A stretch of 64,000 bases of DNA from Geitlerinema sp. BBD 1991-9 (GTDB taxonomy: Bacteria; Cyanobacteriota; Cyanobacteriia; Cyanobacteriales; Geitlerinemataceae), in NCBI GenBank assembly GCA_001657325.1, contig LWRO01000012.1, positions 38,112-102,111 of the forward strand. Reading direction: 5' to 3'. Made by a program: the position numbers and the translations under genes. Shown here in pieces: positions 5,334 through 64,000 of this stretch. The notes under the pieces are model-generated. The model was not told the DNA's origin. It worked only from the letters and a program-made list of their open reading frames with translations, and did not search any database. Position 1 is the first letter of the stretch, and the number at the start of each line of letters is the position of its first letter.

Positions 5334-7355
5334 TTACTTCATATTCTCGAGGGAAGACCAAATGGTGCGTTCTAATCGGGAGCTTTCATCGTCACCGGAA
5401 GGGAAATCGCTCGCTCGATCGTCTGCTTGAATACCATTGGCTTCGTCGAGCAATTCGCGCACAGCATCTCGATCGTCTTGCGTGAGCAGTCGATGGGTGA
5501 CAGGGAAAAATTGATATCCAACTCGTTCGTGACGCAGGATCGCTTCGACAGTTTTGACAGCTTCGTAACCGATGAAAACACCTGATTGATCGACGATCGA
5601 TTGTAGTGGATTGTCAGGATCGAGCAGTCGCTGAGCGTTTTCCTGGGATAAATCGAAAATGCCAAAGACCGCAACGCGATCGCTCAACCCGAGATTTTCA
5701 ACCGCTCGGAGTGCGAGTTGAGTGGCTGAATTCGAGCCTCCCCAAAGAATATCGATTTCGGGGTGCGATCGAAGCATTTCCTCGACTTGGCCGACTTCGG
5801 ACGGAAGAATTGCCCCGGAGGAGGCGACTTCTTCCCAAGCAACTCCCGAATCTTTCATCGCAGCGAGAAAGCCTTCGAGGTTGGGATAGTATCGATCGTA
5901 AGCAGCGGCATCGACGAGTCCGATTTTGAGAGGTCGATCGGGTCGGTGTTTTTCAGCCCACTTGACGAGATATTCGCCCGAATCGTAACCCATCTCGAAA
6001 CTGTCGGTATTGAAACAGGCAAACGTATATTGTTCGGCAATCTCTTCGTCGAAGCAAAAATCGACCGTCACGACGACGATACCGGCGTCGTAGGCTTCGC
6101 GAATGGCGTTGAGGGAGCCAACCGGATCTTCTGGGACGAGAACGATGGCATCGATATCTCGCTCGATGAGGTTGCGAATCGTTTGGGCTTCGTTTTCAAC
6201 ACCGGTGTCTGAGAAAACACTCCAAATTTCGAGTCGTCGGTTCGCCGCCCGCCGCATTCCGAGTTCGTAAGCCTGAAAAATACTGGTATCGCTTTGGGGT
6301 TTAATTAAACTGACATTCAATCGAGGCAGTCGATCGACTGCAATCTGATGTTCCCAGTGGGGCTGGAGGATCGCTTGTTGCCAGTTAACGGCTCGCTCGA
6401 TCTGATAGACGGATTCCAAGATCGCGCCGAACAGGTTCGTCCCTTGAAGGTTCGCACCGACGAATCTCGCACCGCGTTCGAGGCTTGCAAATTTGAAGAA
6501 GCTATTCTGTAAGTCCGCTTTGTAAAGGATTGCTCGATCGAGATCTGCTCGGTTAAAGTTTGCGGATTTAGCATCGACACGAGAAAGGTTTGCCCCTTGT
6601 AAATCCGACCACAATGCTTTCGCTTCAACGAGATTGGCTTCGGATAAATCTACATTTTGGAGGTGAGCGCCAGACAATACAGCCCCTTGCAAGTTCGCTC
6701 CTTGTAGGTTTGCTCCTTGCAAGTTCGCTCCCCATAAATTAGCCCCTTGCAAGTTTGCTTCTTGCAAATTTGCCCCTTTCAGATTTGTTTTGACTAAAGT
6801 TGCTCCTTGTAGATTGCTGTTTTGTAAGTTGACTTGTTGGAGATTTGCCTTTGATAAATTGGCTCCTGCCAAATTGGAGTGAGATAAATCCATACCCTGG
6901 ATTTTTTGGGGATCGAAGGGTTTGAGTAGTTGCACGAGTCGACTTTCAAAGGTATAGCAACGATCGAGCGAGATCTCTGTTAAATGGGCGTTTGGAGCTT
7001 CCAGTCCGGGATTGCTCGCACAGAATTCGTTGAGAGATTGAAGGGCGTCGATACGCCCTTGACTGTAGGCTTGTCCGACTCGAGCGTAAATCGTGTTTCG
7101 TGCGTTGGAAATGGTTTGTTGTCGTCGTTGGGGAATGGTGACGATATATGAAACGAGCGCAAAAAGCAATGCTGCTTCGCTCAAGGTCGCAGTGAGTTTG
7201 AGGAGAGAGATACCTTGCAGCCAATTTACGAAGTCAGCGACTTTCGCATTCAAGATGGAAAGAGACTTAATGAGGGTCGTTTCAGTCGTTTGAGGCTTTA
7301 TTTCCGGCTCCTCTTCAGTGATTTGACTTTCGTCAAACAATTTTCGATCGGACAT
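5334..7355 (-). CDS. Pentapeptide-repeat protein fused to a type 1 periplasmic-binding domain
   Basis: This 673-residue protein has three parts. A cytoplasmic N-terminus is followed by a hydrophobic helix near residues 58-73 (ALLFALVSYIVTI). Then come about thirty A(N/D)LXX pentapeptide repeats at roughly 150-310, which form a right-handed beta helix. Residues 345-640 look like a sugar-binding PBP type 1 domain of the Peripl_BP_4 kind, with AIVLVPEDPVGS, VVTVDFCFDEE and GYDSGEYLVKW. Such domains bind a small ligand and usually feed ABC transporters or sensors. No transporter genes are adjacent, so a membrane-anchored sensor or scaffold is possible. The combination is unusual. The next gene upstream also encodes a solute-binding protein, of another class. 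Confidence 0.75.
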   Translation of the reverse strand: MSDRKLFDESQITEEEPEIKPQTTETTLIKSLSILNAKVADFVNWLQGISLLKLTATLSEAALLFALVSYIVTIPQRRQQTISNARNTIYARVGQAYSQGRIDALQSLNEFCASNPGLEAPNAHLTEISLDRCYTFESRLVQLLKPFDPQKIQGMDLSHSNLAGANLSKANLQQVNLQNSNLQGATLVKTNLKGANLQEANLQGANLWGANLQGANLQGANLQGAVLSGAHLQNVDLSEANLVEAKALWSDLQGANLSRVDAKSANFNRADLDRAILYKADLQNSFFKFASLERGARFVGANLQGTNLFGAILESVYQIERAVNWQQAILQPHWEHQIAVDRLPRLNVSLIKPQSDTSIFQAYELGMRRAANRRLEIWSVFSDTGVENEAQTIRNLIERDIDAIVLVPEDPVGSLNAIREAYDAGIVVVTVDFCFDEEIAEQYTFACFNTDSFEMGYDSGEYLVKWAEKHRPDRPLKIGLVDAAAYDRYYPNLEGFLAAMKDSGVAWEEVASSGAILPSEVGQVEEMLRSHPEIDILWGGSNSATQLALRAVENLGLSDRVAVFGIFDLSQENAQRLLDPDNPLQSIVDQSGVFIGYEAVKTVEAILRHERVGYQFFPVTHRLLTQDDRDAVRELLDEANGIQADDRASDFPSGDDESSRLERTIWSSLENMK

Positions 7356-9313: not shown

Positions 9314-9641
9314 GAACTTCCTCAAAATCACAACGATTTGAAATGTTTCTTAATAAAATTATAGGATTGTTTAAAAAAAATCGCCGATTCCCAGAAGATC
9401 CGTGTCAGAGCTAAAAACGTCTAACGCTTGACTTCCAAAGCATTTGGGCGATATCTCAGTGTTTTCCGATCCTACTCTACGATCGAGATAAATTTATACA
9501 AACTTAATATTTTGTTGGACGAAATTCTCGCGATCGTTCGCTTGCGATCGGTCAGGACAACAGGATAAAAGGGAAAACGTCAAGGCATGAGTACGGTTGC
9601 AACGTGAAGATTGCTGGGAAAACTCGAGATCGATCGAGATT
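9314..9641. other. Gap without gene
   Basis: AT-rich sequence upstream of the DUF1997 gene and downstream of the GNAT gene. I see no coding frame, strong hairpin or named repeat. Confidence 0.6.
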
Positions 9642-35404: not shown

Positions 35405-38400
35405 CGTTTCCATTCATTCCACTTCTCTAAAAAGAAGCGTCGTCCGAAGATGGTGAGGTTTTTATCTCGCTTTAGTACCCGTTTCCATTCATTCCACTTC
35501 TCTAAAAAGAAGCGTCTAAATATGAATCCAGAACTTGAATTTTTGTTGCAGCTAGTTTCCATTCATTCCACTTCTCTAAAAAGAAGCGTCATTACGCTAT
35601 CTTGGTTAATCGTGGCGGACGGTTTCGAGTTTCCATTCATTCCACTTCTCTAAAAAGAAGCGTCGAAAATCCCCTGAGTTGGTTGGCGCTCGATTTGACC
35701 AAAAACTGAAGTTTCCATTCATTCCACTTCTCTAAAAAGAAGCGTCTTATGCACTTGTCGATCTATCGTTCGGTGATCCTGCACCGGTTTCCATTCATTC
35801 CACTTCTCTAAAAAGAAGCGTCGGGTATATAGCCCCCGCGGTCGTACACCTCAACACAAGTTTCCATTCATTCCACTTCTCTAAAAAGAAGCGTCTTGGT
35901 GATAACCTATACCCCGGAGTAACAACAATACTAAAGTTTCCATTCATTCCACTTCTCTAAAAAGAAGCGTCCCTCGAAAGAGGGCGTTATTTCTGTAGCC
36001 GAAATCAAAAAGTTTCCATTCATTCCACTTCTCTAAAAAGAAGCGTCAAAGTTCGGTATCGGCTATTCGCCTCGAGGCAAGCTCCTGTTTCCATTCATTC
36101 CACTTCTCTAAAAAGAAGCGTCATGCCGTCGGGATGAACCTGTCAGCCGAGACGCTGAGGACTGTTTCCATTCATTCCACTTCTCTAAAAAGAAGCGTCT
36201 TTATCGACTCCAAAACGATCCCCCTGGCAACAGATAGTTTCCATTCATTCCACTTCTCTAAAAAGAAGCGTCAGAAAGATCGTGAATTTAAAGATGGAGC
36301 CAAAATAAAGTTTCCATTCATTCCACTTCTCTAAAAAGAAGCGTCATGGACGCAGGGGCTACGGTTCCCAGATACGCCGTCGAGTTTCCATTCATTCCAC
36401 TTCTCTAAAAAGAAGCGTCGACGCCGTAGACTTCTACACTCCCAATCTGGATGCAATATTTGGTTTCCATTCATTCCACTTCTCTAAAAAGAAGCGTCAG
36501 GATTTATGCAATTGGAGTCGCACTCTCAACTAGGGATGTTTCCATTCATTCCACTTCTCTAAAAAGAAGCGTCGAGAGAAGTAGCGATGAATTGTATTGA
36601 TATTGTGCGGGAGTTTCCATTCATTCCACTTCTCTAAAAAGAAGCGTCTCAACGTATATTTATTAGTACCGATATCAAAATTAGTATGGTTTCCATTCAT
36701 TCCACTTCTCTAAAAAGAAGCGTTCCTACTTGCCACCCAGTAGAATTGTCGGTATAAATTAAAGTTTCCATTCATTCCACTTCTCTAAAAAGAAGCGTCG
36801 ATCTCTAAGAGTTTACACCCGTTGCGGAGTTGTTGGGTTTCCATTCATTCCACTTCTCTAAAAAGAAGCGTCACGACGTCAATCGAGCGCTACGACTCGT
36901 TCGTACGTGTTTCCATTCATTCCACTTCTCTAAAAAGAAGCGTCGCTTTGGGGATGTTGCCCAAGGACATAACGATTTTTTGTTTCCATTCATTCCACTT
37001 CTCTAAAAAGAAGCGTCTTTATTGTACGAGCGGGAGGGTACCTCCCAGACTTGGAGGTTTCCATTCATTCCACTTCTCTAAAAAGAAGCGTCTTTAGCGG
37101 CTCCAGACCAATTGATTTCATTATTGTTATGTTTCCATTCATTCCACTTCTCTAAAAAGAAGCGTCTGGCTATCAGACATCAACCCCAATCTGGCGCTGA
37201 CGTATGTTTCCATTCATTCCACTTCTCTAAAAAGAAGCGTCGTGGACGGGATTATTTAGTATACGATCCATGGGATTACGTTTCCATTCATTCCACTTCT
37301 CTAAAAAGAAGCGTCAGGGCTTATGGTTTAAGTATTCAGGGTCGCTTTGATTGGGTTTCCATTCATTCCACTTCTCTAAAAAGAAGCGTCAAATTACGCA
37401 AAAGGCTGCCTGGCAAATTGTGTATCGACTGGGTTTCCATTCATTCCACTTCTCTAAAAAGAAGCGTCTGCTTGGTGAGCGGTTTTTGTCCACTGATTTA
37501 ATGTTTCCATTCATTCCACTTCTCTAAAAAGAAGCGTCTTTACCGCAACGGACACGCCGACGAACGTGCGGGATGTTTCCATTCATTCCACTTCTCTAAA
37601 AAGAAGCGTCGTAACAGCGCAATCAGTTTCTATGGCTGCGTTAAAGCTGTAGTTTCCATTCATTCCACTTCTCTAAAAAGAAGCGTCGAGGAATATTTTC
37701 CGGAAGTGTCGGCGCGTCACTCCCGTTTCCATTCATTCCACTTCTCTAAAAAGAAGCGTCTCTTCTACCGATAGAGTTACGTCTTATTTTGTAGATTGAG
37801 TGTTTCCATTCATTCCACTTCTCTAAAAAGAAGCATCCCCGCTACGGCTGTCGGACTCCAAATCGTATTTAATAGTTTCCATTCATTCCACTTCTCTAAA
37901 AAGAAGCGTCTATTAGTATTAGTAAATAGAGAGCCTCTGATCGAACAAACGTTTCCATTCATTCCACTTCTCTAAAAAGAAGCGTCCTTTGGGATATAAC
38001 CCCAACGAGTCGTTTCCCGCAGACAGTTTCCATTCATTCCACTTCTCTAAAAAGAAGCGTCTTGACCGTCGTGCAACAGTTGGGTGGAAGCTTGGGGGTT
38101 TCCATTCATTCCACTTCTCTAAAAAGAAGCGTCTTTTCGTTAAGGGCAACGATTTCTTCATCGAATCCCTGTTTCCATTCATTCCACTTCTCTAAAAAGA
38201 AGCGTCAAGCAAGGCAAGTATTACGTCGAGGACTCCATCAAGCAGTTTCCATTCATTCCACTTCTCTAAAAAGAAGCGTCTTGTCGATCTTCAGATGGAA
38301 TATTTCGAGCTTGGCAGTTTCCATTCATTCCACTTCTCTAAAAAGAAGCGTCTTTAATTTTTATGGACACTTTGACTTCGGGACGTTGTTTCCATTCATT

Positions 38401-40726
38401 CCACTTCTCTAAAAAGAAGCGTCACTGTCGGACGTGGGAAGGATATCCCCGCGCTCACAAGTTTCCATTCATTCCACTTCTCTAAAAAGAAGCGTCGGTA
38501 ACACGACCTATCGCTACCGTATTAAAGAAGATTTGTTTCCATTCATTCCACTTCTCTAAAAAGAAGCGTCAACCCTACAACGCCTTCAACAAGCCAGAGG
38601 ACAACGCGTTTCCATTCATTCCACTTCTCTAAAAAGAAGCGTCAAAACGGCGAATCGCTTGCTCCCTACCTCCGTCAGATGTTTCCATTCATTCCACTTC
38701 TCTAAAAAGAAGCGTCGCGAATTACCTGCGTGGGTCGTCAGCACCTCGCTCATTTTGTTTCCATTCATTCCACTTCTCTAAAAAGAAGCGTCATCCCGTA
38801 CCTCGTAAGGGGCCGCTCGACCTCGATGTTTCCATTCATTCCACTTCTCTAAAAAGAAGCGTCACCGTTCGACCTCGAGATAGAGCGGAACGAATACGAT
38901 TCGTTTCCATTCATTCCACTTCTCTAAAAAGAAGCGTCAATTTAAGCTTGGTCTTTTCGCGGTTTTTACCTCCTTTGTTTCCATTCATTCCACTTCTCTA
39001 AAAAGAAGCGTCTGTCTGTTTATCTCCACCGGGTTGTCCAACCCCATAGAGGTTTCCATTCATTCCACTTCTCTAAAAAGAAGCGTCTGACTTCGGCGTT
39101 GATTATAAGCCGTTAACGTGGCGAAGTTTCCATTCATTCCACTTCTCTAAAAAGAAGCGTCGTCTGCAAACCGTTCCCGTCATCGAAACATCCTTTTACT
39201 TGTTTCCATTCATTCCACTTCTCTAAAAAGAAGCGTCCTGACCAAAGCGCTGCCGTTGGAGCTATCCGAAGGAGGTTTCCATTCATTCCACTTCTCTAAA
39301 AAGAAGCGTCATGCGATCGGGGACTTGGGATTTCTCAATCCCAAGTGTGGTTTCCATTCATTCCACTTCTCTAAAAAGAAGCGTCATCCCGGCATGGTCG
39401 CACCCCAACGTTGCCGATAAATAGTTTCCATTCATTCCACTTCTCTAAAAAGAAGCGTCTCGAACACGCTTACGCCGTGGCCGAAGCGTTCCGCGCCGTT
39501 TCCATTCATTCCACTTCTCTAAAAAGAAGCGTCTTGGCGTTCTTCCAATCCCTTCTAATCTATCCACGTATTGTTTCCATTCATTCCACTTCTCTAAAAA
39601 GAAGCGTCGATTTCGGCGTTTACCAGATATTGCACGTCACGAACGTTTCCATTCATTCCACTTCTCTAAAAAGAAGCGTCATCCAGAGAGAGAAAACGGT
39701 AGCGACGATTCGCTTTTTGTTTCCATTCATTCCACTTCTCTAAAAAGAAGCGTCTTGCTCGTACTGCTTCCTAGAGAATAACGACACTCCGACAGGTTTC
39801 CATTCATTCCACTTCTCTAAAAAGAAGCGTATTTTAGGGGAAAGATAGCCGATCTTTTCCGCCACCCTGTTTCCATTCATTCCACTTCTCTAAAAAGAAG
39901 CGTTCGATATGAACACCAACGGCTTTTTTCAGCCAGGGACGTTTCCATTCATTCCACTTCTCTAAAAAGAAGCGTTTCAGCGTGATTCACAAAAGTCGCT
40001 TCAATAAAAGCCTCGAAATGTTTCCATTCATTCCACTTCTCTAAAAAGAAGCGTTCTCAGCCGTCTCGGTTGCCTCAGGTTCCTCAGGTTCCGTCTTGTT
40101 TCCATTCATTCCACTTCTCTAAAAAGAAGCGTTCTTACGCCGTGGGCGTTGCTCTCGATCGCTACGAAAAAGTTTCCATTCATTCCACTTCTCTAAAAAG
40201 AAGCGTGCTTTGAACGCCTTTAACCGCTTATCGGGCTTCGTTGTTAGTTTCCATTCATTCCACTTCTCTAAAAAGAAGCGTGTGAAATACCTGTAATTGG
40301 TTTAGAGGGATTGAAAGGAACGTTTCCATTCATTCCACTTCTCTAAAAAGAAGCGTGTACTGGAGGTATCGGACGGTACAGCTCGCATTGAACAAGTTTC
40401 CATTCATTCCACTTCTCTAAAAAGAAGCGTCAAATTTTTATTTGTAGTCATGGGATTAAATCTAGTTTTTGTTTCCATTCATTCCACTTCTCTAAAAAGA
40501 AGCGTCTGAACTGGAGTTTAAAAGATTAATCAACTCCTCATTTTTTGTTTCCATTCATTCCACTTCTCTAAAAAGAAGCGTGATGGGGCGAAATGCGAAC
40601 CTGTTACTATCAGTTAGTTTCCATTCATTCCACTTCTCTAAAAAGAAGCGTGTGTCATAATGCCAGATGGGTTACAAATTATCAATGTTAGTTTCCATTC
40701 ATTCCACTTCTCTAAAAAGAAGCGTC
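35405..40726 (-). CRISPR. CRISPR array 1: 72 repeats, 71 spacers
   Basis: The 36-bp repeat reads GTTTCCATTCATTCC...AAGAAGCGTC on the plus strand; I counted 72 copies from 35405 to 40691 with spacers of 34-46 bp, mostly 37-40. The reverse complement begins GACGCTTC and ends GGAATGAATGGAAAC, which is the form expected for a type III crRNA handle, so transcription should run leftward with the leader at the right. Decay at the left flank agrees. The last base of the plus-strand repeat is C almost throughout, but in the right-hand 13 repeats it changes in blocks (A, T, T, T, T, G, G, G, C, C, G, G, C). One internal repeat (37802) has GCATC. The array belongs with cas1-cas2 and the cmr genes to its right. 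Confidence 0.98.
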
Positions 40727-40991: not shown

Positions 40992-41344
40992 ATGTATCTC
41001 AACGCTCGCATTGCCTTTATCCGCAACCTGTCCGTCGCACTACTCAACGGAGCCGTCACACTCGTTATCCTGCTCATCGCACCGATGGGACTTGCGGGAG
41101 TCATCACCAATACCATTCTCGTCATGCTCGGTAGTACTGGAGACGTTAAACCTTCTAATACGTCTCTCTGTAAGTCATCACCAATACCATTCTCGTCATG
41201 CTCGGTAGCTTTGGGAATGCCACGCTTGCCGATACCATTGTGCGTTTCCTTCAAAACAGCCCAACTCGTCAGCAAACCGCCACGCTAGACACGCCAAACG
41301 ACAATCGCCCACTACCTCGCCAGTCCGAACACGATCGATTCTAA
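40992..41344 (+). pseudogene. csx18: Csx18-like small membrane protein gene, broken by a CRISPR-like insertion
   Basis: The N-terminus MYLNARIAFIRNLSVALLNG with two hydrophobic helices (TLVILLIAPMGLAGVI, TNTILVMLG) resembles the small membrane proteins called Csx18 beside cyanobacterial type III loci. After codon 48 the frame is broken. The 36 bp at 41099-41134 recur exactly at 41173-41208 with 38 bp between them (41135-41172). Deleting 74 bp leaves 279 bp, a clean 92-residue frame that continues SFGNATLADTIVRFLQNS and stops at 41344. As it stands the frame ends at 41288 with a foreign tail of 98 residues total. The arithmetic is that of spacer acquisition: duplication of one repeat length around one spacer length. 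The family name is from memory; the lesion is directly visible. Confidence 0.8.
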
Positions 41345-41363: not shown

Positions 41364-42356
41364 ATGCAAACACTCTACGTTTCCAAACAAGGCTGCTACA
41401 TCTGCCTCAAACAAGAACAACTCCTGGTCAAACACCAGCAACAAATTCTCGCCCACGTTCGCTTACCCCTTCTCGAACAAGTCCTCATCTTCGGCAAATC
41501 CCAAATGACCACCCAAGCCATTCGAGCCTGTCTCGCACGGGATATCCCCATCGCGTATCTGTCTCGACTCGGCTACTGCTACGGAAGAATTCTCCCGATC
41601 GAACGTGGCTACCGACAACTTGCCCGATACCAACAAGAACTCAGCGCCGTCGATCGACTCATTGTCGCTCAGAATATCGTCCACAGCAAACTCAAAAACA
41701 GTCGCACCTTTCTCTTGCGACAACGCCGCCGCCATAGCTGCGACAAAATCGACCTTGCCATTGAAAGCCTGGCCCGCCTGATTCATCAAGTTAAGCAAAC
41801 CTACACCATTGAATCACTCCTCGGCTTAGAAGGGAGCGGAGCTGCTCAATACTTTCCAGCCTTTGGAGAATGTCTGACTCACACCGACTTTACCTTCCTA
41901 ACCCGAACTCGCCGTCCTCCCACCAACCCTGTCAACGCCCTACTCAGCTTCGGCTACCAAATTCTCTGGAACCATCTGCTAAGCCTCCTCGAACTCCAAG
42001 GACTCGACCCCTACCACGCCTGTCTTCACCAAGGAAGCGAACGTCATGCCGCCTTAGCCTCGGACTTGATTGAAGAATTTCGCGCTCCCTTAATCGATTC
42101 CCTGGTCATCTGGCTGATTAACTCCCGTACCCTCGCCACGAACCGCAACTTCAAGTATCGCGACGATGGCTGTTTCCTAAACGATAGCGGACGCACGATT
42201 TATCTGAAGCACTTTACGCAACGCATGGAGGAAAGCATTCAGACTGCAGACGGCTCAAATCAACCCCGCTGGCATCTCCTCACACAGCAAGTCAAGCGTT
42301 TCAAACAGTTCGTTTACCAACCCAGTCATCCCTATCACCCCTATGAAATTCATTAG
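41364..42356 (+). CDS. cas1: CRISPR integrase Cas1 (without RT)
   Basis: Cas1 is the metal-dependent integrase that inserts spacers. The 330-residue protein has the full metal triad: Glu156 in LLGLEGSGAAQYF, His222 in ACLHQGSERH and Glu237/238 in DLIEEFR. No reverse transcriptase domain is attached, unlike the second module at 56880. Its stop codon abuts the cas2 start, so the two are translated together. It is the likely integrase of array 1 and the suspect for the off-target event in the neighbouring gene. Confidence 0.97.
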   Translation: MQTLYVSKQGCYICLKQEQLLVKHQQQILAHVRLPLLEQVLIFGKSQMTTQAIRACLARDIPIAYLSRLGYCYGRILPIERGYRQLARYQQELSAVDRLIVAQNIVHSKLKNSRTFLLRQRRRHSCDKIDLAIESLARLIHQVKQTYTIESLLGLEGSGAAQYFPAFGECLTHTDFTFLTRTRRPPTNPVNALLSFGYQILWNHLLSLLELQGLDPYHACLHQGSERHAALASDLIEEFRAPLIDSLVIWLINSRTLATNRNFKYRDDGCFLNDSGRTIYLKHFTQRMEESIQTADGSNQPRWHLLTQQVKRFKQFVYQPSHPYHPYEIH

Positions 42357-42638
42357 ATGTCCATGCTATACGTCATCACCTACGACATCCCCTGCGACAA
42401 ACGCCGCAAAAAAGTCGCCGATTTACTCGAGGGTTACGGCCAGCGCGTTCAATATTCAGTCTTTGAGTGCTACCTCAACAAGCGCCAGTACTGCCAACTT
42501 CAACAACGACTGCGCCAGAAAGTTCAACTCGATCGCGATAGCGTTCGTTTTTATCCCCTGACCGCGCATACCCTCAGTCAAACTGAAGCCTGGGGCGAGC
42601 CACCTTCCTTTCAACCTCCCAGTTCCACAATTGTATAA
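42357..42638 (+). CDS. cas2: CRISPR adaptation protein Cas2
   Basis: The 93-residue ferredoxin-fold protein starts MSMLYVITYDIPCDKRRKKVADLL, with the typical YDI aspartate, and contains VQYSVFECYL and RFYPLT. Cas2 dimers bridge two Cas1 dimers in the integration complex. Its ATG directly follows the cas1 stop. Confidence 0.96.
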   Translation: MSMLYVITYDIPCDKRRKKVADLLEGYGQRVQYSVFECYLNKRQYCQLQQRLRQKVQLDRDSVRFYPLTAHTLSQTEAWGEPPSFQPPSSTIV

Positions 42639-42948
42639 AGACCGTATGTATAAACACGTAGTTTTTTGCAAATCACAGCTTTTTGGTGAAGATTTATGAA
42701 GATTTTCTGTGTTTCCCGTAAAAGTTTCACGATTTTGCTGAGAGATAGATAGATATTCGATCTCAATATCTCAAACAACTACTCATCACTGCTGAGACTG
42801 CCTCGAACAATCTCTAATTCAATTTAAGCTTTCTTTTATGTTTGGACACGTATAGCGTGCAATTTTCTTCCGTAGATCGACTGCTCAAAATTCATGCCTG
42901 AATACACTGCAACAACTTTTGCACCCGTAGATCGACTGCTCAAAATTC
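42639..42948 (+). promoter_or_regulatory. Upstream region of the cmr operon with duplicated start region
   Basis: This 310-bp AT-rich gap probably holds the promoter of the effector operon. A 55-bp unit, CGTAGATCGACTGCTC...TTTGCACC, is repeated in tandem at 42871-42925 and 42926-42980. Each copy contains the cas10 start region. The first ATG (42894) opens a 20-codon frame beginning MPEYTATTFAPV that stops inside the second copy; the second ATG (42949) is the real start. Confidence 0.75.
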
Positions 42949-44604
42949 ATGCCTGAATACACTGCAACAACTTTTGCACCCGTCCAGGGATTCATTGAAA
43001 AATCCCGAAAACTTCGAGACCTTTACGGTGCGTCTTTGATTTTGTCTTACTTGAGCCGAAAAATTACCAATGCGGCTGAAGTGCAAGGTGTCAATGGCAA
43101 TATTTCGGTGATTTCTCCCGGTGAACCGAAGACGACAAAAGGACTGCCCAACCGCATTTTGCTCAAAGGCACTTTGTCGGAGGAAACTGTTCGTCAAGCG
43201 CTGTTAGATGGTTGGTGTCACTTACTGACGAAGTGTCAGGGTTGGGTCGAAGACAAACTTCCCGAACGTCCCGATTATCGCTATTACTGGCAACGAGAAT
43301 GGGAACTTTGGCGAAACCACACTTGGGAAATTTTCTGTGGATGGGGAAACAGTATCCCTGACGCGATGTTCGACCTCGAACGGCGGAAACTGGCACGAGA
43401 TTGGAGTGCGGTTAACTGGATCGGTGAAAGTTCGAGTTTGTCGGGAACTGATGCGATCGCCTGGAACGAACTCGGTTTGAATACTCGCAATCCCAAATTT
43501 TTACACTACCGGGACGAAAAAGAGAAGATCGATCGATTCTACCAGCAACTTTCAGCGGTTCTAGAAGGAAAACGACTCGACGAAACACCAGAAGGTAAAT
43601 TTCTCGATCCATCAGAGCGGGTCAGTATTCCCGAACTGGTGAAACGGTTGGTGACACATCCTCAAATTGCTAAAGAAATTGGAGATGACCTCCCCAGACT
43701 CGATCGAAACTTCTCCGATGTGCTTCGGCTTCCCAACTCAGAAACGAACAACCCCGGACGCTGGACGGGTTGGTTTATGGGAGACGGCGACAAAGTTGGC
43801 GACCACCTCAAGAAGTTGGGAGATGGTGAAAATGCCGATCTCGCCTTACAAGAATTCAGCAAGGCGATGCGGAACTGGGGTAAGAAGTTTGAAGACAACT
43901 TTCCTAACGGACTCGGTCGCATTATCTACGCAGGAGGTGACGATTTTCTCGGTGTGGTGTACGATGGCACCCCGAACTTAACCGTAGAAGAATTAAACGA
44001 AAGCACGCAAAAATTGAAAGTCGATTCGTGGACGTGGCTGCAAAAACTTCTGGCGAAATGGAAGGAACACAAACAAGAAATTGGACTCAGCGTCGGGTTT
44101 GTTTGGGCGGGTCACAGCGTCCCCCAACGGGATATTTTGCAACATTGTCGCGAAGCAGAAAAGCGATCGAAAGCCTTGGGACGAAACCGCCTTACCCTGC
44201 GCGTGGTGTTTAACAGCGGACGGTACGTGCAATGGACTTGTCCTTGGAAGTATCTCTCGATTCTCAATTGCTATCGCGATCGCGACGGCGGGAAAAACTG
44301 GGGACATCTTTATAATGACTTGGCGCAACTGAAAGCACGGCACGCGATCGAAACTGTTCCCATTTCAGAAGAGTTTCAAGAAGAGTCTCCACGCAAGGCC
44401 GATGCGTCGATCTCGAAGGCTTTGGTCAACATTTATTTTAATCCCGAAGATTGCGAGACATTTTCAGATGTCGAACCGGGAAAACTTGGTGATTACTTAT
44501 TTGAAGAAAAACGTCGCCGTTGCCTCACCCACAGTGACACGCACCAAGCCTTTATCAACTGGTTTGACGAACTGGTTTCGATTGGCTGGTATCTCTGCCG
44601 CTAG
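42949..44604 (+). CDS. cas10: Type III-B Cas10 (Cmr2), no HD domain
   Basis: Cas10 is the large subunit of the type III effector and makes cyclic oligoadenylates when target RNA is bound. The 551-residue protein has a first palm domain with GDGDKVGDHLKKLG near residue 278 and the cyclase GGDD motif at 329-332 (IIYAGGDDFLG). The N-terminus begins directly with the palm-like FAPVQGFIEKSRKLRDLYG and has no HD nuclease motif, so DNA cleavage by Cas10 is not expected. The intact GGDD fits the CARF-HEPN gene at 49299. It starts the cmr operon. Confidence 0.94.
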   Translation: MPEYTATTFAPVQGFIEKSRKLRDLYGASLILSYLSRKITNAAEVQGVNGNISVISPGEPKTTKGLPNRILLKGTLSEETVRQALLDGWCHLLTKCQGWVEDKLPERPDYRYYWQREWELWRNHTWEIFCGWGNSIPDAMFDLERRKLARDWSAVNWIGESSSLSGTDAIAWNELGLNTRNPKFLHYRDEKEKIDRFYQQLSAVLEGKRLDETPEGKFLDPSERVSIPELVKRLVTHPQIAKEIGDDLPRLDRNFSDVLRLPNSETNNPGRWTGWFMGDGDKVGDHLKKLGDGENADLALQEFSKAMRNWGKKFEDNFPNGLGRIIYAGGDDFLGVVYDGTPNLTVEELNESTQKLKVDSWTWLQKLLAKWKEHKQEIGLSVGFVWAGHSVPQRDILQHCREAEKRSKALGRNRLTLRVVFNSGRYVQWTCPWKYLSILNCYRDRDGGKNWGHLYNDLAQLKARHAIETVPISEEFQEESPRKADASISKALVNIYFNPEDCETFSDVEPGKLGDYLFEEKRRRCLTHSDTHQAFINWFDELVSIGWYLCR

Positions 44605-54881: not shown

Positions 54882-55730
54882 TCACGCAGTCAACCAGCGG
54901 CGGAGACTTTCCACAAATTCACCGATTTGGCCGTGGAGGAACGGTTGACGTTCCCAGGCGGTGCAGAAGGCCAGCCAAGTGATGGAAGTGGAACAGCAGT
55001 GGTGCAACCAACGCACGACGAAAGCATCGACGAAACAGGGACGCAGAACGGCGACACCGTCACAGACGAGGGGTGCATCGCAGTCGGCGGGGACGTGCAG
55101 GGAACCGAGGCTGAGGTCGAAACGAGCTTGTGTTAGGGCAATTTCGAGGTGGTGGTGCAGCAGCGATTCGCCAACGCGCAACAGTTGGGAAACGGTCATC
55201 GGCGGACGGGAACCGTTCAGGTGCAAAATGTACGCTGAGAGGGTTTCTCGCAAGGCACGATCGAAATACGCGGTTCCCGTGGCGTAGTAGCCTCGAATCA
55301 TATCCAGCGAATCCGCGTCGGAAAGCGTTTCGTGCAGCAACAGGAGAACGCGACCGGTGGCTTGCAGGGTGGGGGTTCCTTGGAGGCGAGTTAGAAGATC
55401 GATCGAATCTTCTAAATGACGCTTCAGCAGCCATTCCGCGAGGTCGAGACGATCGACTGTCGAGGGAGATAAATGGCGATCGATCGTTTCAGACTTCGGA
55501 TACCAACGGCCGCAAATTGTCCCCGTTCGATCGAGTTGCAACAGCGGAATTTGATGGCGTTGGATTTCCCGTTGGCTGGTTCGGTTCAGACGAACCCCTT
55601 CAAAACAAACAATCTGTTTGACTTGGGAAATGGGATAACGGGACGTGGTTCGATGGCAATATTGAATCGCGAAACCAGATCGATCGACCGTCAGATGGGT
55701 TTTCGATCGCGTTAAATATAATGTCGTCAT
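54882..55730 (-). CDS. Cas1 homologue lacking catalytic residues
   Basis: The 282-residue protein has the Cas1 layout (MTTLYLTRSKTHLTVDRSGF, YPISQVKQIVCFEGV, MIRGYYATGTAYFDRAL, LSLGSLHVPADCDAPLVCDG). Aligned by eye with the two other Cas1 proteins of this island, the first metal ligand Glu is Tyr149 (GYYA against GYEG), His212 is kept, and the two glutamates of DLMEEFR are Ala227-Val228 (CDGVAVLR). It should therefore be inactive as an integrase. The frame is intact over the full domain. No cas2 is adjacent on its strand. A structural role or recent loss of function are both possible. Confidence 0.82.
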   Translation of the reverse strand: MTTLYLTRSKTHLTVDRSGFAIQYCHRTTSRYPISQVKQIVCFEGVRLNRTSQREIQRHQIPLLQLDRTGTICGRWYPKSETIDRHLSPSTVDRLDLAEWLLKRHLEDSIDLLTRLQGTPTLQATGRVLLLLHETLSDADSLDMIRGYYATGTAYFDRALRETLSAYILHLNGSRPPMTVSQLLRVGESLLHHHLEIALTQARFDLSLGSLHVPADCDAPLVCDGVAVLRPCFVDAFVVRWLHHCCSTSITWLAFCTAWERQPFLHGQIGEFVESLRRWLTA

Positions 55731-56490: not shown

Positions 56491-56566
56491 TAGGCGCACT
56501 TCAGGTTTTACAGGTTGGTTCAATTATATCAAGTTCGTTTGAATTTGGCTTTAGTGGAATTTTGCC

Positions 56567-56806
56567 ATATTCCCGGCATCTTCCAGATGCTGGGGATCTA
56601 ACTCTAATTCTAAACATTGTTGGTGCGTTACGCGGGAATTTCATTGACTTGATTTTCGCTAAATTTTCTTGCCCGCTAACACAGCCTACGCGACTTCGGC
56701 ACCTCCCCGTGGGTTCGGGGAGGATGGGTGGGGTTCCGATCGCCAAAGTGAGATACACCCCTCGGTTTCCGCTAGATCCCCGGCATCTCCAAGATGCCGG
56801 GGATCT
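56567..56806. repeat. Repeat cluster upstream of RT-cas1
   Basis: Four elements lie side by side: a diverged CCGGCATCTTCCAGATGCTGG palindrome (56572-56594), family A copy 4 (56621-56690, GGTGCGTTACGCGGG to GCCCGCTAACACAGCC), family B (56694-56750, CTTCGGCACCTCCCC, then GGGTGGGGTTCCGATCGCC), and a perfect 15-bp palindrome AGATCCCCGGCATCT at 56774-56806. Families A and B recur, with B inverted, just after the RT-cas1 gene. Confidence 0.8.
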
Positions 56807-56879
56807 CTCACTCCCAACCACTCAAACCAGAACTCAAATCGCCCTTTGCCACACTCAAAACGTCGAATTCAGAGTGTGG

Positions 56880-58871
56880 ATGGACATCAATCAATACCAA
56901 CTCCGCGCCGCTTGGCAACAAGTGAAACGAGGAAGCCGCATGGCAGGAGTCGATGGCATAACCGTCGATTGGTTCGCCAGTATCTATCGCGACAAACTCC
57001 AACAACTCCACCAACAACTTCGCAACGACTCCTACTTCCCCCTTCCCGCCAAAGGCTTTTTCCTTCGCAAAAACAACGGCGGTAAACGACTCGTGGGCAT
57101 TTCCACCGTCCGCGACAGAATCGTTCAACGGTGGCTTCTCGGAGAACTCTACCTTCCCCTCGAAGACTGCTTTCTCGATTGCAGTTACGCCTATCGTCCC
57201 GGTCGCGGAATTCAACAGAGTGCGTGGCACTACTTTGAACTCTATCAAACTCAACCCACCTGGACTGTCAAAGCCGATATCGCCCAGTTTTTCGACCATC
57301 TCTGTCATGGAATTCTGCGGACGGCTCTTGACAACCTAGACGGCGACTGCGCTGAAGCCGTGATGCAGCAAGTGGAAGCGGGAATTTCGATCGAGGGAAT
57401 TCTCACTCGTCCGACGCAAGGTGTGGTTCAAGGAAACATCCTTTCGGGAGCCTTAGCCAATCTGTATTTGACGGAGTTCGATCGCCGCTGTATCGAATCT
57501 GGCTATCGTCTCGTGCGCTACGGCGACGACCTGGTTCTCGCCTGCGACAGCCTCCCCGAAGCCGATCGCGTGTTGAGCGACATCGAAACCTGGCTCAAAC
57601 AGCTTTATCTGGCGTTACAACCCGAAAAAACGCACATTTTCGCCCCAGACGAGCCGTTTACTTTTCTCAGCTACCGCTTCGAGGACGGAACCCTGACAGA
57701 ACCGCCGCCGCCGCAACTCAAACACGGATTGGCGCGTCCCTACGGCGCAACCCCAAAACGCCGTCCGGCTCGTCCCCCCTCTCGCCCACCTCGCGCCTGT
57801 TCCCTGAAACCGCCTGTTCCGCAGCGTTCCACCGCACCCCCCGCCCACTATTTCGCCGAACCGATGACAACGCTTTACGTGACCGACCAAGGGGCTTATC
57901 TCAAAGTCAAACACTATCAATTTCAGGTGTTTTTCCAAAACCAACTCCAGATGCAGGTTCCCGTGAACCGCGTCACCCACATCGTTCTGTTTGGATGTTG
58001 CAACCTGTCTCACGGCGCGGTGCGGTTGGCGCTCACGCGGGGGATTTCCGTCACCTATTTGTCCAACCAGGGACGCTATTTCGGACGGCTCAACCGTCAG
58101 GGAACTGCCAAAGTGGAGTATTTGGCGCGTCAGGTGGAACGCGCGGCCGATGGGGATTTCGTTCGCACCCAAGCCGAGGCGATCGTTCGCGCCAAACTGC
58201 ATAACAGTCGCGTGTTGCTGTTGCGGCTCAACCGACGGCGACGCACTTTAGAGGCAATGAAGGCCATCGAACAATTAGAGAAACTGCTGGACAATCTCCC
58301 CCTTGCCGATTCGATCGAAGCTTTGTTGGGCTACGAGGGTAAGGGGGCATCGGTGTATTTTCGCGGGTTCGGTTCTCTGTTGAAAGAACAGTTCCAGTTT
58401 GAAAAACGCAACAAGCGCCCGCCGAAAGACCCGGCGAACAGTTTGATGAGTTTGGGTTACACGCTCCTGAGTTACAACGTTTACGCCTTTGTCGAAGCGA
58501 TTGGGTTGCATCCCCATTTTGGCAATCTCCACGTGACGTTAGACCATCGCCCCGGTTTGGTGTGCGATTTGATGGAGGAATTTCGCTCTCCCCTGGTGGA
58601 CTCGTTCGTGGCGTTTTTGGTGAATTCGTCGGTTCTCCAGTTAGACGATTTTACGCCACCGGACGATCGTGGCGGTGTGTACTTGCACCCGGACGCACGG
58701 CGCAAGTTCGTCAAGCACTGGGAAGACAAGTTGCAAACAGAAATGACGCATTTGACGACGGGGTATCGCGTCACCTATCGACGCTGCATCGAACTTCAGG
58801 TTCGGGAGTATTTGGCGTGTTTGTTGGGGGACGTGGAGGCGTATCGCCCCATGTTACGCCCCCTCACCTAG
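56880..58871 (+). CDS. Reverse transcriptase-Cas1 fusion
   Basis: The 663-residue protein joins a group II intron-like reverse transcriptase (residues 1-275) to Cas1 (residues 329-663). The RT part has KADIAQFFDH with Asp133, TQGVVQGNILSGALANLYL, and the catalytic YGDD at 214-217. A proline/arginine-rich linker (about 275-328) precedes MTTLYVTDQGAYLKV. The Cas1 metal triad is intact: Glu486 (LLGYEGKGA), His551 (GNLHVTLD) and Glu566/567 (DLMEEFR). RT-Cas1 proteins of type III systems are known to acquire spacers from RNA. No Cas6 domain is fused. I start at the ATG at 56880 because the longer frame runs through repeats. cas2 follows after a repeat cluster. Confidence 0.96.
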   Translation: MDINQYQLRAAWQQVKRGSRMAGVDGITVDWFASIYRDKLQQLHQQLRNDSYFPLPAKGFFLRKNNGGKRLVGISTVRDRIVQRWLLGELYLPLEDCFLDCSYAYRPGRGIQQSAWHYFELYQTQPTWTVKADIAQFFDHLCHGILRTALDNLDGDCAEAVMQQVEAGISIEGILTRPTQGVVQGNILSGALANLYLTEFDRRCIESGYRLVRYGDDLVLACDSLPEADRVLSDIETWLKQLYLALQPEKTHIFAPDEPFTFLSYRFEDGTLTEPPPPQLKHGLARPYGATPKRRPARPPSRPPRACSLKPPVPQRSTAPPAHYFAEPMTTLYVTDQGAYLKVKHYQFQVFFQNQLQMQVPVNRVTHIVLFGCCNLSHGAVRLALTRGISVTYLSNQGRYFGRLNRQGTAKVEYLARQVERAADGDFVRTQAEAIVRAKLHNSRVLLLRLNRRRRTLEAMKAIEQLEKLLDNLPLADSIEALLGYEGKGASVYFRGFGSLLKEQFQFEKRNKRPPKDPANSLMSLGYTLLSYNVYAFVEAIGLHPHFGNLHVTLDHRPGLVCDLMEEFRSPLVDSFVAFLVNSSVLQLDDFTPPDDRGGVYLHPDARRKFVKHWEDKLQTEMTHLTTGYRVTYRRCIELQVREYLACLLGDVEAYRPMLRPLT

Positions 58872-59097
58872 AACTGCTCGCTGTAAAAGGTGTGTTACGC
58901 GGAAATCTCACGAACGGGATTTCAAACCCATTTTTCGTCCGCGTAACACACCCTACCATCACTCGCTTTTGCAATCGGAACCCCACCCCTCCTCCCCTGG
59001 CTAAGGGGAGGTGCCGAAGGCGGAGGAGTCGTTCTACGAAAGTGAGATGCCCCCCTCACCTAGAACTGCTCACTGCTCACTGTTCACTGCTCACTGT
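58859..59097. repeat. Repeat cluster inserted between RT-cas1 and cas2
   Basis: Family A copy 5 (58889-58956), family B (58976-59030, inverted relative to 56694) and an STRR (59066-59097) fill the gap. The 21 bp CCCCCTCACCTAG AACTGCTC spanning the RT-cas1 stop (58859-58879) recur at 59051-59071 just before cas2. The repeats in between thus look like an insertion that duplicated the gene end. Confidence 0.8.
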
Positions 59098-59099
59098 AA

Positions 59100-59384
59100 A
59101 TGGAACGGCTTTATTTGATTTGTTACGACGTGACGGCGGATTCTCGGCGAAATCGAGTCGCGAAGCTGCTGTTGCAGTACGGGTTACGGGTTCAGAAGTC
59201 GGTGTTTGAGTGCGTGTTGACTCAGAAACAACGGAAGCGATTGTTGGAACGCCTGAACCGCACGATTTTACTGCACGAAGACCAAGTTCGGCTGTATCCG
59301 CTGTCTGGACGCTCTCGGGAGAAGGCGATCGTGTTGGGAATTCAGCCGGAGTGGTCGATCGACGATGACGTTTTTATTGTTTGA
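59100..59384 (+). CDS. cas2: CRISPR adaptation protein Cas2 (RT-Cas1 module)
   Basis: The 94-residue protein starts MERLYLICYDVTADSRRNRV, with the YDV aspartate, and shows LRVQKSVFECVLT and VRLYPLSG. It is the partner of the RT-Cas1 fusion. The two Cas2 proteins of the island differ clearly in sequence, so they are separate adaptation modules rather than a recent duplication. Confidence 0.96.
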   Translation: MERLYLICYDVTADSRRNRVAKLLLQYGLRVQKSVFECVLTQKQRKRLLERLNRTILLHEDQVRLYPLSGRSREKAIVLGIQPEWSIDDDVFIV

Positions 59385-59717: not shown

Positions 59718-60118
59718 CCTGTTTTGTATTGAAGTCTCTTTTTATGCTGGTTTCAAGACTTGCAACTTTGTGAGTCGTCGCTTCTTCGGAAGTGGAATGA
59801 ATGGAAACTAACCATCAATGAGGTCTATCTGATACCGATTTGTTGTCCCCGGTTTGTTTGACAACTGGGGACATTTTTTTGTGTTTGATAACTTGGGCTA
59901 ATATTTTTTTTGAAACAGATAAGCATCCGCAGGGGTCAGGCGATGGCTGAAACCCTGATTCTGTCGTTGAGTGCCACAAATTCCTTGCGCCAACTGGGTT
60001 TGAGGTCGATCGATCGGCTCGTTATTGCATCTAATTCTCAATTGTGGGAGCTAAATCTTGACCCCCTCGGATCGATGGGGTTAGAATGTATGCCTAGAGC
60101 GGGTTTCAAATACCTGCC
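59718..60118 (+). promoter_or_regulatory. Leader region of array 2 with a solitary repeat
   Basis: The 401 bp upstream of the first repeat contain no convincing gene; a 70-codon frame at 59910-60122 runs into the first repeat and is probably chance. At 59773-59808 there is one lone repeat, whose last 20 nt (GAAGTGGAATGAATGGAAAC) match the array-1 repeat (T at the fifth position, where array 2 has C). A T-rich AATATTTTTTTTGAAAC stretch lies at about 59899. Confidence 0.7.
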
Positions 60119-61844
60119 CTGACAGCTTCTTTTGAAGCGGAATGAATGGAAACGCTGTTCGATGGATGCGGAGGTGGGGTCGGCGATTCCTGACAGCTTC
60201 TTTTGAAGCGGAATGAATGGAAACCAACTTCCACACCCACTCCAGACGTAGTCGACGTCGACGACTGACAGCTTCTTTTGAAGCGGAATGAATGGAAACT
60301 ACAATAATACCTAAGAGTAGGCTGCTGAGAAGGCTAATTCTGACAGCTTCTTTTGAAGCGGAATGAATGGAAACGGGGTGGTTTCCCGGACGGGGGTTGC
60401 AGAGACAACTGACAGCTTCTTTTGAAGCGGAATGAATGGAAACCTCTTCCTCCTCGCCTTCGGCCCGGCTCGAAATCTCCGTCCTGACAGCTTCTTTTGA
60501 AGCGGAATGAATGGAAACCGTTGTTCTCGCTCAGCTTGTTGTTTCCAACAAAGAACACTGACAGCTTCTTTTGAAGCGGAATGAATGGAAACAAGACGAC
60601 CCCGATTATTAAAATTCCTCCAGCGTATGAAGCTGACAGCTTCTTTTGAAGCGGAATGAATGGAAACAATCTAGACTAGTTTTTTTAAAAAAACTAGCCC
60701 AATCAAAACACTGACAGCTTCTTTTGAAGCGGAATGAATGGAAACATTGCTCGTGCAGGAGTGGTGGAAGAATTGACCAAACCCTGACAGCTTCTTTTGA
60801 AGCGGAATGAATGGAAACTCCATCATTGGAAACTTCATCAACGCCTTTCGGCTGACAGCTTCTTTTGAAGCGGAATGAATGGAAACCACCACGCCCAAGT
60901 ACACCTTGGGTGTAATCCAAGACTGACAGCTTCTTTTGAAGCGGAATGAATGGAAACATTCTACCACATCTTCTTTGGAACGAAGGATATTAAAATCTGA
61001 CAGCTTCTTTTGAAGCGGAATGAATGGAAACATTTCCATCGTCGCTGTCATCTTTGAAAGCGTTGCCATATCTGACAGCTTCTTTTGAAGCGGAATGAAT
61101 GGAAACATTTCGAACTATCGCTACGACGAGAGCCTACCTCTTTCTGACAGCTTCTTTTGAAGCGGAATGAATGGAAACTACTCGCCTAAGTTTGTAGCCT
61201 CCCCTGTCTCATCATCGACTGACAGCTTCTTTTGAAGCGGAATGAATGGAAACATATAGATCTAGGGGGTTTGCGTTTCCCTCAAACCTTAAGACTGACA
61301 GCTTCTTTTGAAGCGGAATGAATGGAAACAGTTCTTTGCAAGAACTCGCCACAATATTGGCAGTAGGTCTGACAGCTTCTTTTGAAGCGGAATGAATGGA
61401 AACTCGTACCGGTAAGCCCGGCCGTACCGGCGAGCCTTTGCCCTGACAGCTTCTTTTGAAGCGGAATGAATGGAAACCGTGTAGTCTTTAGCGAGAACCT
61501 CAGCGGACTCTTTAGCGCTGACAGCTTCTTTTGAAGCGGAATGAATGGAAACCCCTCAATTAAGTGAGGGAGTCGGGACTAACTAATACTGACAGCTTCT
61601 TTTGAAGCGGAATGAATGGAAACCAGATTGTATACTCCCCGTCCTTCTTCATGGACTGGGACTGACAGCTTCTTTTGAAGCGGAATGAATGGAAACAATA
61701 TTGAATACTTCTTCTAGGGAATTGAAATTCCCGAACGCTGACAGCTTCTTTTGAAGCGGAATGAATGGAAACCTTCCACCGCTACTGCCAAGGGGCTAGT
61801 GATAGCGAACTGACAGCTTCTTTTGAAGCGGAATGAATGGAAAC
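60119..61844 (+). CRISPR. CRISPR array 2: 24 repeats, 23 spacers
   Basis: The 35-bp repeat starts CTGACAGCTTC and ends GGAATGAATGGAAAC; 24 copies run from 60119 to 61810, with spacers of 33-43 bp. I saw no variants. The plus-strand sense ends in GGAAAC, as expected for type III crRNA handles, with the leader at the left beside the RT-Cas1 operon. The repeat has an internal hairpin, GCTTCTTTTGAAGC. It shares its last 15 nt with array 1 but differs before that. Seven of the 23 spacers contain perfect or near-perfect stems of 6-11 bp. Confidence 0.98.
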
Positions 61845-61870
61845 GCGCCATTTGGTAAACCAAATGGCGC
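61845..61870 (+). terminator. Perfect hairpin ending array 2
   Basis: GCGCCATTTGG, TAAA, CCAAATGGCGC: a perfect 11-bp stem with a 4-nt loop directly after the last repeat. It is probably the terminator of the pre-crRNA, though no long T run follows. It occupies the place of a 24th spacer. Confidence 0.75.
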
Positions 61871-62637: not shown

Positions 62638-64000
62638 CTACAACCCCCGCTCTCGAAGAATACGAGTTTTTACCAAATCTGGCGTATCCGAAAAATCCAA
62701 CAACACATCCAACAACGGCGACGAAACCCCGCGTTCCTTGACAATTGCCACCACCAACGCCAACTGATTCGCCGTCGGAAGCGGCTTATCCGCATTCAAA
62801 CAATCCTCAAACACCAACAACTCCAAAAAATTGGCATCGTATTTTCCCAACTGCACCAACAACCCCGTAATCACCGTTCGATCGATCTTCCGCTTCACAT
62901 CCACTCCCTGAAACAAACGCCGCAATCGCACCTGCAACGGCAACACCCACTGCACCCGTTCCACCATCGCCAAACGATTGAGGGCAAAAAACGCCGAACG
63001 TGCCACCTGATTCGCCAACGCCGGTTTTTCCAACACCCGATCGATCGTCTCCCAAATCGCCTCAGCCACCGCCAAATCCACCATTTCCCGCTGCTGCTGC
63101 GCCACATAAACCGCCGACTCCAACACCGCAAACACCATCTGACAAACCTCCGGCTTCTCCTCATCGCGCACTCGGCGAAACAGCGACAACACCTCCTCCT
63201 GGGTGCCGAAACCCGCCTTTAGCCCCTCAACCGCCGCCGCCAATAAATTCTGCCGCACCCCTACCAACGGCGACGCCAATCCCGCCGACACCGACAACAG
63301 CGCAATTCCCCGCCGTTCCGCCACCGCCAGTACTGCCCAGGATGCCGCCAACGCCACCTCCCGCGAGGAGTCCTCACAAGCTGCCAACAAGCGGTTTAAC
63401 GCCGCTTCGTCTCCGTCTTCCGCCGCCGATCGATCGCACTTGACGCGCAACAACCGCGCTTCTTTCAACGTCACCTGCGCCAACCAGGGCATCACCGCCT
63501 CCGGCACGATTTCCATTTTTTTCAACACTCGCGCCAGCAGTTTCTCCGACAGTGCGGGTAACACCCCCATCAACAGTTCCCCCCAGCGATCGAACAAACT
63601 CGTCGTGTCTCCAATCAATCGATCGCACGCCGGAATCAACTCAAAAGGTCGATCGATCAGTCGCGGCGCAATCCACACCAACAGCAACAACTTCGCCCCC
63701 GCCCCGCAACCCGTCAGTTGCGCCAAAATCCCGCCCACACCGGACAACCGACTGGCCGCGATATCCGTCACCTTCCACTGACGCATCGCCGACGCAACCG
63801 CTTCCCCACCGCCAGACTCGATCGCATATTCCAACGCCAAAATCGCCCGTCGCGGATTTCCCCCACCCGCCAACACCACCTCTAACAATTGCGGGAGTCT
63901 GCCCTCATCCCCCAACCCCTTCTCCCAATCTTGGGAGAAGGGGAGCCGTTGTGAAGTCTCTCTCCCAAGGTGGGGAGAGGGATTTAGGGAGAGGTCTGCA
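62638..64000 (-). CDS. HEAT-like repeat protein, 5' part beyond the window
   Basis: From about 63900 leftward the product is an all-helical protein of about 420 residues with HEAT/ARM-like alpha-helical repeats (REVALAASWAVLAVAERRG, EVCQMVFAVLESAVYVAQQ, VARSAFFALNRLAMVERV). No catalytic motif is seen. The reading frame stays open to the right edge through a dispersed repeat (63901-63996), which adds residues such as LSLNPSPHLG and QDWEKGLGDEG in frame, so the gene continues outside the window or was cut by the repeat. The only start-like codon is a TTG within the repeat. The function is unknown. Confidence 0.6.
   Translation of the reverse strand, partial: ADLSLNPSPHLGRETSQRLPFSQDWEKGLGDEGRLPQLLEVVLAGGGNPRRAILALEYAIESGGGEAVASAMRQWKVTDIAASRLSGVGGILAQLTGCGAGAKLLLLVWIAPRLIDRPFELIPACDRLIGDTTSLFDRWGELLMGVLPALSEKLLARVLKKMEIVPEAVMPWLAQVTLKEARLLRVKCDRSAAEDGDEAALNRLLAACEDSSREVALAASWAVLAVAERRGIALLSVSAGLASPLVGVRQNLLAAAVEGLKAGFGTQEEVLSLFRRVRDEEKPEVCQMVFAVLESAVYVAQQQREMVDLAVAEAIWETIDRVLEKPALANQVARSAFFALNRLAMVERVQWVLPLQVRLRRLFQGVDVKRKIDRTVITGLLVQLGKYDANFLELLVFEDCLNADKPLPTANQLALVVAIVKERGVSSPLLDVLLDFSDTPDLVKTRILRERGL
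63901..63996. repeat. Dispersed double-hairpin repeat (family C), copy 2
   Basis: GCCCTCATCCCCCAACCCC, then TTCTCCCAATCTTGGGAGAA, and CTCTCCC...GGGATTTAGGGAGAGG: the inverse of 47152-47247. It is read in frame by the HEAT-like gene. Confidence 0.85.

Follow-up and report, generated by a model that had tools for sequence, protein, structure and literature searches.

The window, by which we mean the whole 64,000-bp stretch that was analyzed (contig C97, positions 38112 to 102111, of a draft genome of 5.98 Mb in 113 contigs, with cyanobacteria as its relatives), holds a type III-B CRISPR locus that runs rightwards from position 40992 in the order csx18, cas1, cas2, and then cmr-type genes, with a CRISPR array to its left (Table 1). 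Both cas1 and cas2 are intact, as full-length frames with family matches. A second adaptation module, built around a reverse transcriptase-Cas1 fusion, lies farther to the right; between an AAA/WCX-domain gene and the fusion gene, we also observed a weaker Cas1-like gene (54882-55730, minus strand; 84.5 bits to PF01867). Altogether, the genome carries six Cas1-like genes, three of them within the window. The interval from cas2 to the cmr2-like gene contains a 55-bp tandem duplication (42870-42983; 2.1 copies) that includes the start codon of the latter gene.

Table 1. Positions of the features discussed, in window coordinates
Feature	Coordinates	Strand	Remarks
CRISPR array, 72 repeats	35406..40726	-	leader presumably on right side
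csx18, split by the unit	40992..41344	+	present frame stops at 41288; joined-flank frame stops at 41342-41344 (TAA)
First copy of 36-bp duplicated target	41099..41134	+	exact match to 41173-41208; flanks differ
38-bp insert, spacer-sized	41135..41172	+	unique in genome; length within native spacer range (34-46)
Second copy of 36-bp duplicated target	41173..41208	+	identical to 41099-41134
cas1, presumed integrase	41364..42356	+	TIGR00287, 222 bits
cas2	42357..42638	+	TIGR01573, 71.9 bits
cmr2/cas10-like gene, same type III-B locus	42949..44604	+	
Second adaptation module: reverse transcriptase-Cas1 fusion	56562..58871	+	PF00078 and PF01867
cas2 of the RT-Cas1 module	59100-59384		PF09827
Array with 35-bp repeats, RT-Cas1 module	60118-61845		
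Unsplit copy of the C12 dispersed repeat	63926..63978	+	both junctions at the unsplit distance of 29 bp

We placed the leader of the large array on its right side because of the repeat end GGAAAC, the degeneracy of the leftmost repeat, and the position of the cas genes. Read in a 36-bp register, the 71 native spacers measure 34 to 46 bp, and 54% of them are no longer than 38 bp. An earlier reading of this DNA, made from the sequence only, had credited the array with 36-bp repeats; this holds for the 59 older, leader-distal repeats, 58 of which have C as their 36th base, but not for the 13 leader-proximal ones, in which that base varies (A, T, T, T, T, G, G, G, C, C, G, G, and C). Since the 36th base is free in the 13 newest repeats, recent duplications were effectively 35 bp long; the duplication length in this array appears to have dropped from 36 to 35 bp, and native duplication length thus wobbles by one base.

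A 36-bp duplication around a spacer-sized insert splits csx18

Within csx18, 373 bp from the array and outside any CRISPR array, we found a unit composed of a 36-bp copy, a 38-bp insert, and a second 36-bp copy, amounting to a net gain of 74 bp. The two copies are identical and maximal (the preceding bases are G and A, the following bases T and C), and the insert occurs only once in the genome in a search tolerating up to three mismatches, so that the exact 36-bp duplication around 38 unrelated bp claimed by the sequence-only reading stands. A 131-bp query across the unit found no second place in the genome, only pieces of 19 to 24 bp. Chance does not explain a pair of identical 36-mers at a distance of 74 bp. 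The duplication equals the length of the 59 older native repeats and is one base longer than the 13 newest, and the insert falls within the native spacer range.

In its present form, csx18 is a 98-aa frame that is shifted after residue 48 of 92, whereas joining the flanks, that is, removing one copy together with the insert, gives the 92-aa frame that the same reading had proposed. More specifically, the Csx18 model NF040558 scored 89.6 bits on the joined frame (curated cut-off, 50 bits), which also aligns with Csx18 homologues; on the present frame it scored 70.9 bits and covered residues 2 to 48 only, in keeping with a gene that retains just its first 48 residues in frame. When 5.8 billion proteins were searched, the joined frame matched, at 100% identity over 92 aa, a protein from another contig of 108,299 bp (P0001), and the window's own 98-aa form was recovered as P0004. 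P0001 is thus, at the protein level, the predicted intact homologue without the 74 bp, and, with P0001 intact and P0004 split, the csx18 site differs between two assemblies. In an alignment of 11 proteins of the kind that had been proposed as a check, P0004 leaves the Csx18 family where the insert starts, and the broken csx18 is therefore the derived form. Judging from the shifted frame, the unit has likely inactivated csx18. In two relatives of the same family (loci L210 and L211, genomes G006 and G010), two tandem csx18-like matches lie upstream of cas1; the window has one.

That the assembly created the unit is a reading to which we give next to no weight. It could draw on the draft state of the genome, with its 113 contigs, and on the presence of the intact allele in another assembly. 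Units of the same design nevertheless occur in independent assemblies (see below), and a misjoin of known parts cannot supply the insert, because its 38 bp are found nowhere else in the genome.

Partial viral match and folding of the insert

We tried five insert patterns in viral contigs or as a coding pattern, and searched the genome itself as well. The first 22 bp of the insert match a 51.6-kb IMG/VR contig (GC, 35-40%) exactly, and the following 16 bp differ; the gene in which the match sits encodes a repeat-rich protein (...TTGDVKPS...). As a control, a reversed 16-mer gave 8 matches and a reversed 20-mer none, from which a 22-bp match is expected about 0.002 times per pattern. Two patterns over the right half of the insert gave 0 matches in viral contigs, and a coding-level pattern for TGDVKPSNT gave 0 viral matches; among 159 proteins examined, GDVxPS appeared only in the window's own frame. 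Compared with phage and plasmid records in a distant mode, the insert found no match over 80% of its length (best E values about 2 and 5). In the donor search proposed by the sequence-only reading, one viral contig thus matched 22 of the 38 bp exactly, and neither phages, plasmids, nor viral contigs matched the whole insert; we regard a viral source as a suggestive lead only. The array itself showed only 14- to 15-bp matches to that viral contig (E of 0.87 or more) and hit seven phage records, all at E of about 2 or worse; with no good phage matches for the array, a missing match is normal for spacers of this host. Separately, spacer 67 of the array (40357-40395) starts with GTACTGGAG, the nine bases spanning the left junction of the csx18 insert, which may be chance.

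The insert is also an imperfect inverted repeat, with a folding z of about -3.2 to -3.48; the value of -3.48 compares with a 5% quantile of -3.67 among 94 native spacers. We rejected this hairpin as the mark of a different mechanism, as native spacers equal its z. Three other inserts folded alongside (from the units described below) gave z of -0.6 to -1.6. The duplicated csx18 target folds with z of about +1, no better than its shuffles, and the unit therefore probably yields no working guide RNA; it is expected to be a dead-end scar.

Two further units in the same genome

Close direct repeats were scanned in 81 stretches of the genome (1,608,102 bp, 27% of the total), with the surroundings of cas genes deliberately included. 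We retained perfect pairs of at least 24 bp with a gap of 20 to 60 bp that were isolated and had a complexity of at least 0.5. Six pairs passed this filter: 36/38 (copy/insert, in bp; the csx18 unit), 37/36, and 35/39, together with the nonfitting 34/23, which is located at a contig start, 29/55, and 38/45.

The 37/36 unit (9466-9575 of locus L061; contig C58 of this genome, G000) lies between cas2 and cas1 at a locus that looks like type I-D by its neighbors and whose array repeats are 37 bp long. On contig C12, the 35/39 unit interrupts a member of a dispersed repeat family, of which five unsplit members have the expected spacing, one of them in the window (Table 1). No array or cas gene was found in the 20 kb scanned around it. 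Native repeats of 35, 36, and 37 bp are seen in this genome, with 36-bp-repeat arrays also on contig C90, and the three units, at 35, 36, and 37 bp, equal these lengths.

Units beside cas1 in other genomes

For other genomes, we scanned 84 stretches, namely, 24 cas1 loci from a genome collection and 60 stretches around cas1 matches. For the latter, we sampled 120 genomes of the order and found cas1 in 89 at an E of 1e-40; among the matches listed, 40 were taken by score order (four at contig starts being left out) and 20 were hand-picked for variety. Three more units emerged: (i) a 37/37 unit between cas1 and cas2 of L171, where local repeats are 37 bp; (ii) a 37/33 unit between a cas4-like gene and cas1 of L201, where local repeats are also 37 bp; and (iii) a 36/38 unit between cas1 and cas2 of L031 (Microcystis viridis FACHB-1342), where local repeats are 36 bp. 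In the congener G128, the orthologous gap contains the L171 site without a split, and also two more partial copies of the element. At L031, the sequence interrupted by the unit is a dispersed repeat; its unsplit form, found elsewhere in that genome, has 97% identity over 106 of 116 joined bases. Unsplit sites were thus recovered for four of six units, that of csx18 at the protein level.

L201 differs in having three 37-bp copies beside cas1 (6892-7196), unlike the native repeat, the leftmost being older, with two mismatches. Its first "spacer" appears to hold a small element that is palindromic and has a 5-bp duplication. Without that element, it would be 29 bp long, and the whole would be a three-repeat mini-array; 29 bp is shorter than every one of the 41 native L201 spacers. 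Possibly, this three-copy unit is a starting array.

Duplications equal the local repeat length at sites mostly unlike the repeat

Across loci with an array, eight perfect isolated noncanonical pairs were counted, five of them the units above and three misses. Duplication and local repeat were equal in length in five of the eight pairs, namely, the five units, each of which has a local array. The misses were L214 (39 versus 35 bp), L023 (59 versus 36 bp), and L176 (58 versus 37 bp); L023 (59/34) and L176 (58/23) had a complexity below 0.5 and were counted as misses all the same. Multi-pair clusters, low-complexity pairs, canonical two-repeat arrays (L020, L026, and L191), and pairs below 100% identity were dropped before counting, the imperfect pairs including an 85-bp-period repeat family in L027, L028, L039, and L040; we also left out a 28/49 pair right at the L139 start. 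The filter had merged the L031 unit into an array-like cluster, and this unit was counted from an earlier repeat scan of that locus. Insert length lay within the native spacer range in six of six units, the C12 insert being compared with the window's 35-bp array. Duplications of varied length, which would have told against the sequence-only reading, were looked for, and the further units at loci with an array instead match their local repeats (37, 37, 37, and 36 bp).

These data bear on an ordinary duplication, in which slippage or template switching copied 36 bp along with 38 bp of filler. The plain 55-bp tandem duplication only 1.7 kb away, imperfect repeats elsewhere in cas loci, and the inverted-repeat character of the insert would all fit such an event. 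It predicts no link between duplication length and array, however, and the equality in five of eight pairs, the three same-genome units at native repeat lengths, and the equally strong hairpins among native spacers make it quite improbable. Insertion of a tiny mobile element that duplicated 36 bp of its target is, in our view, more improbable still. The insert does have inverted-repeat ends, as this reading would have it, but it is single copy in the genome, and the inserts of the csx18, C58, C12, and L031 units, when compared, share no common ends. To our knowledge, no mobile family duplicates 35 to 37 bp in step with the length of the local CRISPR repeat.

For the five units at cas loci, the distances to cas1 are 156, 11, 47, 26 (L201), and 68 bp; the L201 value is counted from its older third copy, and its perfect pair starts 224 bp from cas1. 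Each locus has 5.9 to 10.8 kb of nonarray sequence, 3 to 5% of which is within 160 bp of cas1, a share that becomes 5 to 22% when reading frames of at least 100 aa are taken out. Because the 160-bp limit was set post hoc and the loci were chosen around cas1, we read this adjacency as a pattern and not as proof.

The same observations weigh on a related reading, in which the reaction was the same but the integrase acted in trans, coming either from the RT-Cas1/Cas2 module (56562-59384) or from another contig. The six Cas1-like genes and the additional 36-bp-repeat arrays on C90 fit this reading, and the C12 unit, with neither arrays nor cas genes in the 20 kb scanned around it, makes action at a distance seem possible. 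Set against this, the duplication equals the repeat length of the neighboring system in five of five cases, the units abut the local cas1, and the array of the RT-Cas1 module has 35-bp repeats. We therefore judge action in trans unlikely, and favor the integrase of the adjacent locus.

Resemblance of a target to the native leader-repeat junction is a feature of integration in E. coli. The sequence-only reading had proposed comparing the duplicated site with that junction, and for the window (GGG|A) the outcome was divided, with p of 0.044 in the 35-bp register and 0.705 in the 36-bp register. Elsewhere, p was 0.001 at L201, 0.44 at C58, 0.23 at L171, and 0.86 at L031; leader-junction mimicry is therefore unsupported as a general rule, three of the four other units tested showing none. 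Likewise, similarity to the native repeat is no higher in the duplicated sites than in the sequence around them; L201 is the exception, with 17 of 37 columns matching the repeat, a value reached by 1% of nearby windows. According to PMC6895254, repeat motifs place the second cut in the type I and II systems studied. Exact repeat length at mostly unrelated sites would instead place the ruler in the protein complex, and suggests that a ruler within the integrase sets the duplication length.

DISCUSSION

Very probably, the csx18 unit is the scar of a single spacer joined outside the array by Cas1-Cas2, with the adjacent type III-B pair as the probable agent. Off-target integration by Cas1-Cas2, as originally claimed for this site, gains support from the anatomy of the unit, the intact P0001, and the repeat-length units at other loci. 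In this reaction, Cas1-Cas2 loaded with a 38-bp prespacer would attack both strands of csx18 at positions 36 bp apart, mirroring its attacks on either side of the first repeat in the array, and gap filling would then copy the 36 bp on each side, giving copy-spacer-copy. The anatomy of the unit, the unsplit allele at the protein level, and the length rule across loci can be read from the sequences; the acting enzyme, the direction, the source of the prespacer, and the loss of Csx18 function are inferred. Four observations speak against this reading: there is no confirmed protospacer, as phage and plasmid searches gave nothing below an E of about 2 and the viral match extends over just 22 bp of the insert; the 13 newest repeats imply duplications of 35 bp; the csx18 site resembles the native leader-repeat junction marginally and in the 35-bp register only, with three of the four other units tested showing no such resemblance; and three of the eight perfect pairs mismatch the local repeat.

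More tentatively, and as a possibility that we would not call probable, cyanobacterial integrases may repeatedly write spacers beside their own cas1, with the repeat length held in the complex, and a site so hit may start a new array, as at L201. If this is true, hits beside cas1 may damp adaptation or break accessory genes, as in csx18. From these scars, it seems that adaptation is able to disrupt genes of the host, an accessory cas gene in the present case. As natural type III-B and I-D events, they keep both borders of the event, with the unsplit site available in four of six cases and three lengths present in one genome, and they make it testable whether the integrase or repeat motifs set the duplication length and how new arrays begin.

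Off-target ("noncanonical") spacer integration giving neo-CRISPR units was reportedly described by Nivala, Shipman, and Church in 2018, with natural cases said to occur in Yersinia pestis and Sulfolobus islandicus. That work is cited in PMC9456107 and PMC11788318, and, according to PMC11788318 and PMC6895254, such integration is best known from Cas1-Cas2-overexpressing cells and from test tubes. Our literature search, the coverage of which leaves out most subscription papers, returned no cyanobacterial case by title. In PMC6895254, type II-A Cas1-Cas2 integrated in vitro at non-CRISPR sites, as we propose for csx18; those events were judged likely half-site, with G favored, and a repeat motif placed the second cut, whereas the units described here are complete duplications fixed in genomes, at targets mostly unlike the repeat. 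The units of 2018 are of the same kind: each reportedly lies outside the array and has a repeat-length duplication of its target on both sides of a single insert of spacer size. Those described here differ in that they belong to cyanobacterial type III-B and I-D systems, abut cas1, and include one that breaks a cas accessory gene, and in that a single genome holds units of three lengths equal to its three repeat lengths. What is new here is their recurrence beside cas1, together with duplications of exactly one repeat length at targets that mostly do not resemble the repeat.
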